A DNA stretch of 64,000 nucleotides from NCBI RefSeq assembly GCF_016907475.1, contig NZ_JAFBCA010000001.1:2418001-2482000 (forward strand). The letters run 5' to 3'. Below the pieces are notes generated by a model. The model worked only from the letters and a program-made list of their open reading frames with translations, had not been told where the DNA came from and ran no database searches. The position numbers and the translations under genes are program-made. Positions 29,563-34,167 of this stretch are shown here, piece after piece. The first letter of the stretch is position 1. Each line of letters starts with the position of its first letter. Source of the stretch: Nocardioides cavernae. Its GTDB lineage: Bacteria; Actinomycetota; Actinomycetes; Propionibacteriales; Nocardioidaceae.

Positions 29563-30351
29563 GTGAAGCTGTTGGTCGCTTCGGCCAGGATCCTGGGCTC
29601 CTGTATTGGGGCACTCCTCGTTCCACTCACCGTGATCTGGCTGGTCGAGATCGGTGTGGCGGGGGCCTGGAAGTGGCTTCCCGGCTGTGCAGTCCTGATC
29701 GCCGGCCTCGCCGGGTGCTCGGCCGCTGCTCTCTGGTGGCCTCGTGCGCTCATGCGCGCAACCGCTGTTGTTGCCGCGCTCGTCTGGGGGACGGTGGCTC
29801 TCAGCGCTGCGTACTGGCCGGCGGTCACGACCCGCGCAGAAGTCCGGGAGGCCTTCGATCGTGTCGGGTACGACGGGGGCATTGTGGATCCCACGATCTG
29901 GGAGCTCGGTGGGTCCTGGTGTGCCTTCGGTTCTCGAAGCCTGCTCGGCTGTCCGCGGCTGTCGGCGGACTACCTGGTCAACGAGGGCGAGAGCGAGGAC
30001 GTGATCCGCGCCCTTGAGGAGGCTGGCTTCGAGTTGGTCAAGGGAGCTCGGCCGCGACCGGTTGAGAGTTTTGACCATCCCGGGTCGGGATCGATGGGCG
30101 TCGGCTCGAGGTACTGGTTCAAGGATGACGGAATGCGGGTCGAGGTCACTGTCATCGACGACCAGGACATGGCTGTGCCCATGCAGGGCATGAACGACCT
30201 CACGGCCTACGTCCCGACGAGCACGGAGCGGGTCAGTCTGGAGTTCAGCGACGCGGCGAACCCCCATCAGTTGCTCGACAACATTGCAGAGCTCGGCTTC
30301 TGGTCACCCGACGCCTCGCTCGAGGACGTGCAGCCGCCACCCGGTTGGTGA
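29563..30351 (+). CDS. Unrecognised membrane protein
   Basis: A 262-residue protein with three hydrophobic segments in the first 90 residues (ILGSCIGALLVPLTVIWLV, LPGCAVLIAGLAGCSAAALWW, ATAVVAALVWGTVALSAAYW) and a 170-residue domain after them, likely outside the cell, with Cys residues in GGSWCAFGSRSLLGCPRL. The GTG at 29563 follows a very strong AGGGGAGGGAG ribosome site; the frame continues to 29503 without support. It looks less GC-rich than its neighbours. I do not recognise the family. Confidence 0.65.
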   Translation: MKLLVASARILGSCIGALLVPLTVIWLVEIGVAGAWKWLPGCAVLIAGLAGCSAAALWWPRALMRATAVVAALVWGTVALSAAYWPAVTTRAEVREAFDRVGYDGGIVDPTIWELGGSWCAFGSRSLLGCPRLSADYLVNEGESEDVIRALEEAGFELVKGARPRPVESFDHPGSGSMGVGSRYWFKDDGMRVEVTVIDDQDMAVPMQGMNDLTAYVPTSTERVSLEFSDAANPHQLLDNIAELGFWSPDASLEDVQPPPGW

Positions 30352-30370
30352 GACAGGCCCCCGACGGGCT

Positions 30371-31840
30371 CTAGTCCGCCCAGCCCTTCGACCGCTCCAC
30401 CGCGTCGGTCCAGCGGGCGTACGACGCGTCGAGCGCCGCACGGTCGCCACCGGGCTCGAAGCGCCGGTCGAGCGCCCACGTGTCCCGCAGGTCGTCGGTC
30501 GACCCCCACACGCCCGTGCCCAGCCCGGCGAGGAACGCGGCGCCCAGCGCCGTCGTCTCGACGATCTCCGGGCGCTCCACCGCGCGACCGACCTGGTCGG
30601 CCTGGAGCTGGCAGAGGAAGTCGTTCTCCGCCGCCCCGCCGTCCACGCGGAGCGTGGTGAGCTCGGGCAGCGTCTCGAGCACGTCACGGACCTCGAAGGC
30701 GATCCCCTCGAGCGTCGCCCGCACGAGGTGGGCACGGGTGGTGCCGCGGGTGATGCCGAGGATGGTGCCGCGGGCGTGAGGGTCCCAGTGGGGCGCGCCG
30801 AGCCCCGTCAGCGCGGGGACGAACACCACCCCGTCGGTGTCGTCGACGGTCGCAGCGATCGCCGCCGTCTCCGCGGCGTTGCCGACGATCTGCAGCCCGT
30901 CGCGCAGCCACTGGACCGCCGCCCCGGTCACGAAGATGGCGCCCTCGAGGGCGTAGGTGAGCTCGCCGTCGGGTGAGCGCCAGGCCGCGGTCGACAGCAG
31001 GCCGGCGTCGCTGCGCACCACCCGGGTGCCGGTGTTGGTGAGGATGAACGAGCCCGTGCCGTAGGTGCACTTGGACTCGCCCTCCTCGAAGCACGTCTGC
31101 CCGAAGAGCGCGGACTGCTGGTCGCCGGCGACGCCTGCGATCGGGAGCGAGAGCCCGAGGAAGACCGCGGGGTCGGTCGGCGCGATCTCGCCCCAGTTGG
31201 GGACCAGGTCGGGGAGGGCGTCACGGGGCACGCCGAAGAGCTCGCACAGCTCGTCGGACCACTCACCCGACACGAGGTCGAGCAGCAGGGTGCGGCAGGC
31301 GTTGGACACGTCGGTGACGTGCCAGGTGCCGCGCGTCATCCGGGCGATGAGGTAGGAGTCGACCGTGCCGACGGCGTACCGTCCCGACTCCACCAGCGCC
31401 CACGTGTGCGGCTCGTTCTCGGCCAGCCACATCAGCTTGGTGCCGGAGAAGTAGGGGTCGAGGCGCAGGCCGGTGAGCTCGGCGACGCGGTCCTCGTGGC
31501 CGTCGGCGCGCAGCCGGTCGCAGATGTCGGCGGTACGACGGTCCTGCCACACGATGGCGCGGCGGGGCGAGCCGAGCGTCTCGCGGTCCCACAGGACGAC
31601 GGTCTCGCGCTGGTTGGTGATGCCGACCGCGGTGAGCTCGGACTGGTCGACCTTGGTCAGCACCTCGCGCGTCGCCTCCAGGGTGGCCTGCCAGATCTCC
31701 TCGGCGGAGTGCTCGACCCAGCCGGGCTGCGGGAAGTGCTGCCGGAACTCCTGGTAGCCCTTCGCCTGGATGCGGCCGTCGGGGGTGACGACGACGGCTG
31801 TCACGCCGGTGGTGCCGGCGTCGATCGCCAGGATGCTCAT
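30371..31840 (-). CDS. glpK: Glycerol kinase
   Basis: A 489-residue FGGY kinase. It has the N-terminal phosphate motif LAIDAGTTGVTAVVV, the ITNQRETVVLWDRETG-like region, the substrate loop PYFSGTKLMWL, GDQQSALFGQ and the C-terminal DGGAAENDFLCQLQAD. It makes glycerol 3-phosphate from glycerol and ATP in the cytoplasm. No glpF or glpD is next to it. The ATG at 31840 overlaps the stop of a 27-codon ORF (ATGA), which in turn overlaps the stop of the DUF1028 gene, so translation of glpK may depend on ribosomes passing through both. Confidence 0.95.
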   Translation of the reverse strand: MSILAIDAGTTGVTAVVVTPDGRIQAKGYQEFRQHFPQPGWVEHSAEEIWQATLEATREVLTKVDQSELTAVGITNQRETVVLWDRETLGSPRRAIVWQDRRTADICDRLRADGHEDRVAELTGLRLDPYFSGTKLMWLAENEPHTWALVESGRYAVGTVDSYLIARMTRGTWHVTDVSNACRTLLLDLVSGEWSDELCELFGVPRDALPDLVPNWGEIAPTDPAVFLGLSLPIAGVAGDQQSALFGQTCFEEGESKCTYGTGSFILTNTGTRVVRSDAGLLSTAAWRSPDGELTYALEGAIFVTGAAVQWLRDGLQIVGNAAETAAIAATVDDTDGVVFVPALTGLGAPHWDPHARGTILGITRGTTRAHLVRATLEGIAFEVRDVLETLPELTTLRVDGGAAENDFLCQLQADQVGRAVERPEIVETTALGAAFLAGLGTGVWGSTDDLRDTWALDRRFEPGGDRAALDASYARWTDAVERSKGWAD

Positions 31841-31920
31841 GCCCGTACTCGCTTCGCTCCGTGCGCGCACGAGGCACGACCAGCACTGCGCTGAATGATT
31901 CGCTCGCTCCGCTCGCTCAT
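31837..31920 (-). CDS. 27-codon bridging ORF with SERSERI-type repeat
   Basis: A small ORF that begins inside the DUF1028 stop (ATGA at 31920-31917) and ends inside the glpK start (ATGA at 31840-31837). It starts MSERSERIIQ and ends CAHGAKRVRA. The DNA repeats the unit GAGCGAGCG twice and has GGAGCGAAGCGAG near its end. From memory, short ORFs with SERSERI and AHGAKR recur between genes in several actinobacterial genomes; this was not checked. It may be a mobile-repeat-derived translational linker or a leader peptide. Whether the peptide itself has a role is unknown. Confidence 0.6.
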   Translation of the reverse strand: MSERSERIIQRSAGRASCAHGAKRVRA

Positions 31921-32756
31921 GCGTCCTCGCCTCGGATGATCTCGAGGATGCGCCGGTCGATCCACGCCGGCCGAGCACCGGAGTCGACCCGCATCTCGTA
32001 GTTCTCCGAGCCGACCCACATGTGGAAGCTGTCCTTGCCCTCGGCCTTGGCCAGCGACTCCAGCTCGATCATCAGCGCGTCGTCGACCGGCACCTGCTCC
32101 TCGGGGGTCGACGCCGTCAGGTAGAGCTCGTTGAGGTCGACCAACCGGGCGAGCTCCGTGACCGGGTCGGCGTGGTCGTCGACGCGCAGGTCGACGGCCA
32201 CGTCGTCGTGCCCGCCGTAGCCGGCCCCGTCGCGTACGACGAGCAGTGCCGCCGACTGGCGGCCGCGGCTGTCACCTCCCGCGTCGTCGCCGGCGGCCAG
32301 CGCCGCGAGCAGGCGTCGCTCGACGGGCTGGTCCTCGGCCGCGATCCACGCGCGCTCCATTGCCTCGACCACCTCGGGTCCGGTGAGGATGTTGCCCTGG
32401 ATCGCGTAGCCGCCACGCTCGCCGCTGCGCCCGGTCGCCCCGCCGGCCCAGGCGAAGCACTCGGAGCCGGTCCACGTCGCGGCGTTGCCGTCGGAGTCGA
32501 CGACGCCCACCTGTCGGTGCTCGCGGCCCTCGTCCTCCTCGACCAGCCGGTCGAGGGCGACCTGCGCGGTCGCGCCGTCGTCGAGGTGCGCCAGGCCGAG
32601 GTACTTGAAGGCGAGGTTGGCGTCCGCCTGCGTGGCGATGGCGCCGACCCCGGCCGCCGCTGCCGGCACGGCGGACCCGACGGCCAGGAACTTGGAGGCC
32701 ACGGCGACGCCCCACGACTCGCCGTCGTCGGACCGGGCCACGATCGAGAAGGTCAT
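31917..32756 (-). CDS. DUF1028 protein (Ntn-hydrolase fold)
   Basis: A 279-residue DUF1028 protein: TFSIVARSDDGESWGVAVASKFLAVGS at the start, VGAIATQADANLAFKYLGLAHLDDG, then GGYAIQGNILTGPEVVEAM, all typical. The first 220 residues are the DUF1028 domain, related to N-terminal nucleophile hydrolases; the last 60 are a short extension. The start at 32756 is chosen for the conserved Met-Thr-Phe beginning; an ATG at 32768 is possible. It is the first gene of a unit leading into glpK. Confidence 0.85.
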   Translation of the reverse strand: MTFSIVARSDDGESWGVAVASKFLAVGSAVPAAAAGVGAIATQADANLAFKYLGLAHLDDGATAQVALDRLVEEDEGREHRQVGVVDSDGNAATWTGSECFAWAGGATGRSGERGGYAIQGNILTGPEVVEAMERAWIAAEDQPVERRLLAALAAGDDAGGDSRGRQSAALLVVRDGAGYGGHDDVAVDLRVDDHADPVTELARLVDLNELYLTASTPEEQVPVDDALMIELESLAKAEGKDSFHMWVGSENYEMRVDSGARPAWIDRRILEIIRGEDA

Positions 32757-32919
32757 GTGCCGAAACATAGCGGGCGCGAGGAACGAGGGCCCGCTGCGTG
32801 GGAGGTAGGTCGAGTGGCCCCACGACCGAGCCTGCGAGGTCGTGACGGGACGTACCGAGACCCACCTCGTCGAGGGTCGGGGGCACGTGATCGTCCGACC
32901 CCGGTGCGAGGATGCGCCT

Positions 32920-34167
32920 GTGCTGACTCGTCTCGGATTCCCCCGCGTGGGGGAGCACCGCCGCTTCGTCGCGGCGATCGTCGCCGACACCGTCGGCAGC
33001 GGGCTGTTCATGCCGATCACGCTGCTCTACTTCCTCGCGATGACCGACCTGTCCCTCGTGCAGGTCGGGTCCGCGCTGTCGCTGTCCGCGGTGCTGACCA
33101 TGCCCGGTGCGTTCGTCATCGGCAGCCTCGTCGACCGGTTCGGCCCGAGGAAGATGATGCTCATCGGCAACCTCGTCCAGGCGGCCGGCATGGCGGCCTA
33201 CCTGTGGGCCGACTCGCTGCTCGCGGTCGCGCTGTGGACGGCGCTGCTCAACCTCGGGCGCCAGTCCTTCTGGGGCTCCTTCGGCAACGTCGTCACCGCG
33301 ATCTCGGCCCCGGGGGAGCGGGAGCTGTGGTTCGGCTTCCTGCAGGCCGTGCGCAATCTCGGCTACTCGGTCGGTGGGGTGCTCGCCGGCCTCGCGCTGC
33401 AGGTCGGCACCGACGTCGCCTACCAGTCGGTGGTGGTCGTCAACGCGGTCACCTTCGTGGTCGCCTTCGTCCTGCTGCTCGACGTGCCCGACCACCGAGT
33501 GGTGCATCCCGCCGACGCCCCGGTCGAGGGCTGGGGAGTGGTGCTGCGCGACACCGCCTACCTGCGGCTCGTGCTCGGGCAGCTCGGCTTCGTGGCCGGG
33601 ATGATGGTGCTCAACTTCGCCCTGCCGGTCTACGTCGCCGAGACGATCGACCTGCCCGGATGGGTGGTGGGGGCGATCTTCACGCTCAACACGACGCTGG
33701 TCGGCCTCGGCCAGGGGCTCGTCGTACGCCGCATGACCGGGCGCGTGCGCGCCCGGATGATGGGCCTGGCGCAGCTGACCTTCGTCGTCGCCTACGCCCT
33801 GTTCGTCGTCGCCGGTTGGCTCCCGGTCTGGCTGGCGATCGTGGTGATGCTCGTCGGAGCGGCGATCTACACCGCCGGCGAGCTCACCGGTGGGCCGGTC
33901 TTCAGCGCGACCGCGGCCGAGGCCGCACCCGACCACCTCCGCGGCCGCTACCTCGGCCTGTTCCAGCTCAGCTGGGGGCTCGGGGGAGCGGTGACGCCGG
34001 TGGCGTTCACCTGGCTCCTCGCCCACGGCCAGACCACGTTGTGGTGGGTCCTGGCGCTGGTCGCGCTCGCCAGTGCGGCGTACCTGCAGCGGCTGCCGCA
34101 GGTCCTTCCGGCGGCGGGCCGGCGGGTGACCAACCGGGTCGAGGAGGAGGCCCCGGAGGCGGCGTGA
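32920..34167 (+). CDS. Major facilitator superfamily transporter
   Basis: A 415-residue protein with twelve predicted helices. The loop 2-3 signature is GSLVDRFGPRKMMLIG (MFS motif A: GxLaDrxGxkxxl). It resembles MFS drug or small-molecule exporters. The GTG at 32920 with GAGGA before it is preferred; the upstream in-frame extension to 32842 is not hydrophobic. It stands alone between divergent DUF1028 and convergent pfp. Confidence 0.85.
   Translation: MLTRLGFPRVGEHRRFVAAIVADTVGSGLFMPITLLYFLAMTDLSLVQVGSALSLSAVLTMPGAFVIGSLVDRFGPRKMMLIGNLVQAAGMAAYLWADSLLAVALWTALLNLGRQSFWGSFGNVVTAISAPGERELWFGFLQAVRNLGYSVGGVLAGLALQVGTDVAYQSVVVVNAVTFVVAFVLLLDVPDHRVVHPADAPVEGWGVVLRDTAYLRLVLGQLGFVAGMMVLNFALPVYVAETIDLPGWVVGAIFTLNTTLVGLGQGLVVRRMTGRVRARMMGLAQLTFVVAYALFVVAGWLPVWLAIVVMLVGAAIYTAGELTGGPVFSATAAEAAPDHLRGRYLGLFQLSWGLGGAVTPVAFTWLLAHGQTTLWWVLALVALASAAYLQRLPQVLPAAGRRVTNRVEEEAPEAA

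Follow-up and report, generated by a model that had tools for sequence, protein, structure and literature searches.

Short Repeats at Gene Boundaries

Among the interspersed repeats of bacteria, those closest to the element considered here are the mycobacterial interspersed repetitive units (MIRUs), which were reportedly described by Supply et al. in 1997. REP sequences are likewise interspersed short hairpin repeats and are associated with RAYT transposases. According to a 2009 paper (PMC2734929), MIRUs are interspersed units of 40–100 bp, and longer MIRU-VNTR repeats in front of one gene have been linked to higher mRNA levels. A 2015 review (PMC4473831) ascribes to them a small ORF that overlaps its neighbours at both ends and in the same orientation, and the lack of dyad symmetry, while a 2025 review (PMC12548453) adds that they appear to be mobile and that start codons are where they insert, with −4 coupling. 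Rickettsia palindromic elements (RPEs) and other ORF-bearing bacterial MITEs are presented, in PMC10969869 and PMC2229807, as small palindromic repeats. Finally, for termination–reinitiation coupling and leader ORFs, a −4 overlap and an RNA-unfolding model are given in PMC12548453 and PMC4833913.

The element found in Nocardioides cavernae appears to work like a MIRU, likened to it by description and not by sequence, and fails one stated MIRU feature. Like MIRUs as portrayed there, it is a small ORF overlapping its neighbours in the same orientation (among 64 aligned copies, the right end is in phase in 62 and the left end overlaps in up to 42), it is interspersed and sometimes tandem, with 10 copies in its own genome, and its size lies within the 40–100 bp range; unlike MIRUs, for which PMC4473831 states no dyad symmetry, it has covarying hairpins. 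The hosts of MIRUs are mycobacterial, whereas those named here, among the 80 matches listed, are Nocardioides, Kribbella, Actinopolymorpha, Phytohabitans and Jongsikchunia. MIRU-like start-codon linkers are thus not confined to mycobacteria; several actinobacterial genera carry families whose ends are alike, and two of these families have hairpins pairing with the start codon of the target.

With RPEs, again as described in the sources cited, the element shares an open frame thanks to which the host gene is spared, but RPEs fuse in frame inside proteins, while the linkers stay separate ORFs by means of a 4-nt stop/start overlap. In-frame insertion inside genes was not found among the 64 copies, all of which lie before ORFs at the start codon. 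The element resembles REP sequences in being an interspersed short hairpin repeat and differs from the REP/RAYT system in bearing an ORF, in sitting at start codons, and in that 0 of 39 genomes has a Y1_Tnp match. The −4 overlap and the RNA-unfolding model are also those of termination–reinitiation coupling; in contrast to the coupling ORFs described there, the putative coupling ORF is here a multi-copy insert. In a literature search, none of the titles or abstract openings among the matches listed describes these linker families.

The Linker between the DUF1028 and glpK Genes

The window, i.e., the whole stretch of DNA that was analysed, comprises 64,000 nucleotides. On its minus strand, a gene of the DUF1028 family (31917..32756; 279 codons plus stop; Pfam PF06267, E 2.6e-70) is followed by the linker ORF MSERSERIIQRSAGRASCAHGAKRVRA (31837..31920; 27 codons plus TGA) and by the glycerol kinase gene glpK of the FGGY kinases (30371..31840; 489 codons plus stop; PF00370, E 3e-65; PF02782, E 2.7e-42). 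The DUF1028 stop codon TGA (31919–31917) overlaps the linker start within one ATGA (31917..31920, minus strand), and the linker stop codon TGA (31839–31837) overlaps the glpK start within another (31837..31840, minus strand), leaving zero untranslated bases, as a sequence-only reading of the window had pointed out. The distance from ATGA to ATGA is 80 bp, and the element, which belongs to family 1, scores 99 bits (R1; E 2.6e-25). The same reading had taken the linker DNA to be built on the repeat GAGCGAGCG; this applies to the left 20 nt, which hold two copies of it, and not to the rest of the linker, and the window shows no excess of the 9-mer taken alone (3 matches against 5.4 expected).

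Two hairpins can be drawn on the minus strand, a left one, ATGAGC ... GCGAAT (31898..31920), and a right one, CTCGTGCGCG ... CGGGCATGAG (31836..31873), in which the start codon of glpK has its partners within the linker, the helix including one G-G mismatch and one G-T pair. Folded alone, the window copy is no better than its shuffles (z −0.04). A comparison of positions 30000–34000 of the window with Rfam gave a sole match, which is under the gathering score (E 0.94) and lies outside the element.

Copies and Their Distribution

In the genome from which the window was taken (G000; 4.85 Mb, one contig), BLAST with a 96-nt query returned 10 copies at E ≤ 1e-5, the best E values among the other copies reaching down to 2.8e-27. 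Nine of the ten are nearly full length (75–100% identity), the tenth was returned as a 42-nt piece and proved on inspection to be a nearly full-length copy, and all ten right ends start an ORF of 139–489 codons. A search of relatives, own genome counted, found the element in 17 of 39 genomes. With a covariance model, copies were found in 67 of 195 genomes of the same genus and matches in 10 of 296 genomes drawn across the phylum, several of the latter being weak and, to judge from their sequence, probably unrelated; in named genomes, a pattern scan gave at least 120 stretches. The earlier statement that SERSERI/AHGAKR ORFs occur in other actinobacteria is thus borne out by the same-genus count and by the five genera named above among the matches listed. 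Tandem pairs at 80-bp spacing were seen in G021 (L070), G488, G622, and G577. Carriage by plasmids or phages was rejected, since plasmid and phage collections gave zero matches to an 85-nt copy at E 1e-5.

The copy set used below (n = 64, from 17 genomes) was obtained from 68 BLAST matches, which gave 67 profile matches and, finally, 64 copies: the weak BLAST match L089 was not recovered by the profile, and L056, L060, and L088, which are partial or shortened, were excluded. The copies are related to each other, and statistics on them overstate independence. Read by eye, L060, L088, and L225, none of which is part of the set of 64, are right ends that remain, in shortened form, at start codons; two of them, L088 and L225, prolong the reading frame of the target gene in phase.

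Position, Phase, and Upstream Context

The distance from RTGA to RTGA is 80 bp in 50 copies, 71 bp in 7, 83 bp in 2, 79 bp in 2, and 77, 74, or 68 bp in the rest. The element length equals 2 modulo 3, as needed for the 4-nt overlap at the right end, in 62 of the 64 copies, where one third would be expected; the two copies out of phase are L008 and L075, the latter also bearing an internal stop. Of the 64 right ends, 63 start an ORF that has 60 codons or more or runs off the locus, and the remaining one starts a second tandem linker; for comparison, the window has 59 ATGAG sites, and 25 of these are the start of 60 open codons. The RTGAG of the right end belongs to the search profile, so its presence proves little, and it is the ORF behind it that constitutes the evidence.

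All 120 loci listed from the named collection were scored with the frame not demanded. Among the matches listed there, a recognisable left end was found for 123 of 125 distinct right ends; of these 123, the length is 2 modulo 3 in 115, intactness was scored for 114, and in 117 the frame behind the right end stays open for 60 codons or more or up to the end of the locus. When the 11 copies shared with the set of 64 are left aside, the numbers become 104 of 112 for the phase and 103 of 112 for intactness, again among the matches listed. Two of the nine copies scored as not intact, L204 and L221, are intact on another reading, which covered 80 of the 120 loci. To judge from their letters, the target genes include hemA, ilvN, menB, an aldehyde dehydrogenase gene, and an alanine-racemase-like gene, the Pfam check having covered DUF1028 and glpK.

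Upstream of the linker, up to 42 of the 64 copies have a long ORF with a stop codon that overlaps the start of the linker, a few of these upstream ORFs being possibly spurious, and no such overlap exists in the other 22; L058 was counted among the latter, though a start two codons upstream would overlap. The proposal that the linkers insert between coupled genes therefore suits up to 42 copies and fails for the 22, so that the start codon, and not a gene pair, is the target. Of the 22 linkers without upstream overlap, 8 are preceded by a TANNNT hexamer at the distance of a leaderless promoter, as is none of the 42 with it (0.25% at random places). Shine–Dalgarno-like words precede 76% of the linker starts among the 42 and 18% among the 22, the latter being about as few as the 15% at random places; the downstream start, where such a word would lie inside the element, has one in 27%. 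From the upstream overlaps, the Shine–Dalgarno-like words, and the hexamers taken together, the linker start codon seems to replace the old start in operons and leaderless-type genes alike.

Occupied and Empty Sites

Of 24 DUF1028–glpK loci read, only that of the window is occupied. At L091, L092, and L109, the two genes are joined by a single ATGA, and at several others by a single GTGA; the remaining loci have a spacer, a diverged kinase, or a glpK that is not adjacent. Between rex (named from its letters) and hemA, 7 of the 30 junctions read are occupied (G000, G017, G010, G014, G027, G029, and G034), a further 7 of the 37 matches having no locus. The occupants are different sequence variants, and this suggests repeated insertion at the site; alternatively, a single old insertion may have been lost in most lineages. 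G004 and G006 have other linkers at this junction, and where there is no linker at all, rex and hemA overlap by ATGA or GTGA in 19 of 21 cases. The linker of G004 (L154), translated by eye, is a different one of 19 codons, MTFTPQNHSLRSCFRGGPA, with ATGA at both ends.

The menB gene is occupied in G017 and G019 (L065 and L040). In 17 of the 19 other junctions listed, with 19 of 26 loci being listed, a TANNNT hexamer is followed by the start codon; one of the empty sites is that of G000, whose flanks are nearly identical to those of G017. The insert comprises 80 bp exactly at the leaderless-type start codon, and AGT is retained as the second codon of the gene. The ilvB–ilvN junction is occupied in 3 of 26 listed (26 of 30 loci), namely in G000, G012, and G026. 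The relatives of G026 start ilvN with ATGTCC or ATGTCG, whereas the occupied gene starts with ATGAGC, and the element may for this reason bring ATGAG along rather than require it at the site. RTGAG stands at both ends of the element, either as a target duplication or as element sequence. Presence and absence at all these sites point to movement; the loss of old copies would also leave empty sites.

A Probable Mobile Element Tolerated as a Translational Linker

It is quite probable that the window copy represents a mobile element, non-autonomous and MITE- or MIRU-like, which measures about 80 bp, inserts at RTGA(G) start codons and is tolerated there as a 'translational linker'. The basis for this is the copy number, the exact position, the phase, the open frame, the empty sites, and the covarying hairpins, from which we infer translation of the linker, re-initiation, and movement by transposition. 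The sequence-only reading had supposed a multi-copy family of repeat-derived linkers with ends on start and stop codons, and both the phase (62 of 64) and the empty sites in relatives speak for it.

According to this model, the left end of the element would supply a new start codon where the old one stood, the frame would stay open for 26–27 codons, and the right end would leave the old start codon in a 4-nt overlap with the linker stop. A ribosome would then start the linker instead of the gene, whether by re-initiation after an upstream gene, at a Shine–Dalgarno site, or on a leaderless mRNA; while translating the linker, it would open the right-end hairpin that hides the start codon of the gene, terminate at the linker stop, and re-initiate on the gene. 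We propose that insertion is tolerated because the linker would pass the ribosome on to the gene, and the architecture suggests that ribosome flow would be kept intact, as had been supposed for the window copy. Two questions are raised by this model, namely, which enzyme places DNA exactly onto start codons, and whether the small reading frame is what renders insertion there harmless. Pairs of occupied and empty sites, one leaderless-type gene included, are natural experiments on re-initiation.

Hairpins and the Start Codon

Over the 64 copies, 97.3% of the cells of the right helix are paired, with 6 pairs changed on both sides, and the helix takes in the downstream start codon; RNAalifold recovers it unaided. 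With 66.9% of its cells paired, the left helix is the weaker one, and RNAalifold does not recover it; in the left hairpin, the linker start and the position 22 nt beyond its first base covary, as A-T in 37 copies, G-C in 19, and other in 8 (n = 64). Taken jointly, the two helices have values that 0 of 500 shuffles match. The folded strand is the sense strand, since G-T cells number 63 of 768 in the right helix, and A-C cells 3, the two main G-T columns being also third codon positions. In families 1 and 2 together, start codons beginning with A have T in the pairing arm in 74 of 78 cases, and those beginning with G have C in 7 of 9, a covariation whose Fisher value is inflated by relatedness. 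For the downstream start region, the probability of being unpaired is predicted at 0.18, compared with 0.49 when the letters of the linker are shuffled (lower in 56 of 64 copies) and 0.47 when the element is removed (lower in 49 of 64).

Such a structure could be a regulatory device kept by the host, the hairpin hiding the start so that the gene would be expressed strictly in dependence on whether the linker or the upstream gene is translated. The covariation of the start-codon helix in both families, the joint change of the first base of the start codon and its partner in the linker, and the predicted loss of accessibility relative to the site with the element removed all agree with it; however, the element is patchily present between close relatives and precedes unrelated genes, which a selfish insert fits better, and the helix could equally serve DNA recognition. 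We give this reading a limited chance of being right; it is compatible with the mobile-linker explanation.

Another reading of the same pairing, which we hold to be rather unlikely, is that the CTCAT arm acts as a guide that pairs with the ATGAG start region, the pairing thereby aiming insertion at start codons and some enzyme carrying it out. Five of the 64 copies have variant targets, and three of these have a matching arm: L062 (GTGAG/CTCAC), L075 (GTGAG/CTCGC), and L043 (ATGAC/GTCAT). In L070, the first unit pairs by wobble, and L045 is mismatched.

In L058 and L085, which precede a hemA-like gene in G034 and G029, respectively, the pairing between linker and gene was seen by eye to continue past the start codon (CAGGTAGCTCAT with ATGAGCTACCTG and GAGGTAGCTCAT with ATGAGCTACCTC), the change between G034 and G029 being matched on both sides.

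Hairpins at both ends, together with a base that changes along with the start codon it pairs with, would also be expected of a REP/RAYT or IS200/IS605-like element, whose Y1 (HUH) transposase reads hairpins and finds its target by base pairing. This is nevertheless very unlikely: the Y1_Tnp domain (PF01797) has no match in the 39 genomes, the 17 with the element included, though it is matched in 5 of 14 control genomes, and the copies examined are all short. A Y1/RAYT transposase as the mover was accordingly rejected on the zero PF01797 matches in these 39 genomes.

The Open Frame and Its Peptide

None of the 50 copies of 80 bp has an internal stop, as against 5.8 expected with columns shuffled, and none of 500 shuffles is that low; one of the two 79-bp copies, L075, has one. 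Both ends of the peptide, SER-SER and AHGAKRVRA, are conserved. In a pooled set of 118 copies, used for column entropies alone because it was partly selected for intact ORFs, codons 8–15 have mean entropies of about 1.16 bits at the first position, 0.86 at the second, and 1.06 at the third. Internal frame shifts that cancel themselves occur in L191, L183, L193, and L221, which have a different peptide (e.g., VSELASEPSTQRAS...) and keep the outer phase. Codons 18 and 27, as well as 20 and 25, change their amino acids jointly, preserving base pairs.

A frame open in nearly all copies and conserved peptide ends are what a micro-protein family would show, with the basic peptide of 27 residues as the selected product. 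However, the middle of the peptide varies at all three codon positions, the frame-shifted copies keep their outer phase, residues change together in favour of base pairs, and the other linker families have other peptides, which makes a micro-protein extremely improbable. The peptide, for which a function had been suggested from the window copy, was rejected as the selected product on its variability and on the frame-shifted copies, and it is most likely a by-product. As for the idea that a low-complexity GC-rich repeat abuts two genes by chance, GAGCGAGCG by itself is indeed common by chance, but the idea can be dismissed outright, being refuted by the ten genome copies, which reach E 2.8e-27 elsewhere in the genome and all precede ORFs of 139–489 codons.

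Further Linker Families

A related element, family 2, is present in 13 of 151 genomes of the family of G273, nine of the 13 belonging to genus g13, where its peptide reads MSERSERTxNTAE...SEAQS. The alignment comprises the 23 copies complete enough among 36 distinct matches listed, the rest including fused units of tandem arrays; 22 of these 23 have a length of 2 modulo 3, and, as in family 1, the start codon is reached by a helix that covaries. Tandem arrays occur: in genus g13 (L176, L179, L181, L138, and L196), one to three tandem linkers stand before the gene MSTLHKFKAYFGM..., which we take to be sepF. At this sepF-like locus, some inner ATGA junctions are lost, and units may fuse into one longer frame.

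Family 3 is of unrelated sequence (e.g., MSTPRRSSPPLRSSEQRRRDPA and MSTPRRSCPPLRSSQQRRRDPA), consists of 65-bp units, and has matches in 18 of the 39 genomes. Fifteen of its matches are in G000, four of them in a tandem array (L364, G000:C1:1047861-1048097) and 11 elsewhere. In its hairpin, 3 of 9 predicted pairs covary, and the start codon is not included; 37 of 48 matches listed are in phase, which is weak evidence, the search having demanded phase.

In genus g12, 14 matches (L429–L442) were found in 8 of 98 genomes. Of the 12 that were parsed (all but L432 and L438), ten are in-phase 65-bp units at start codons (e.g., MSEACERIIGPQCGSRACEATA), some of them tandem; L440 is a 44-bp unit with a CTG start before a short ORF, and L436 is out of phase. 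Families 1 and 2 and the g12 family have in common a left end like ATGAGCGA...GCGAGCGA. L436 has an in-frame repeat, SELASESTA, at the start of the gene, and its left end resembles the linkers.
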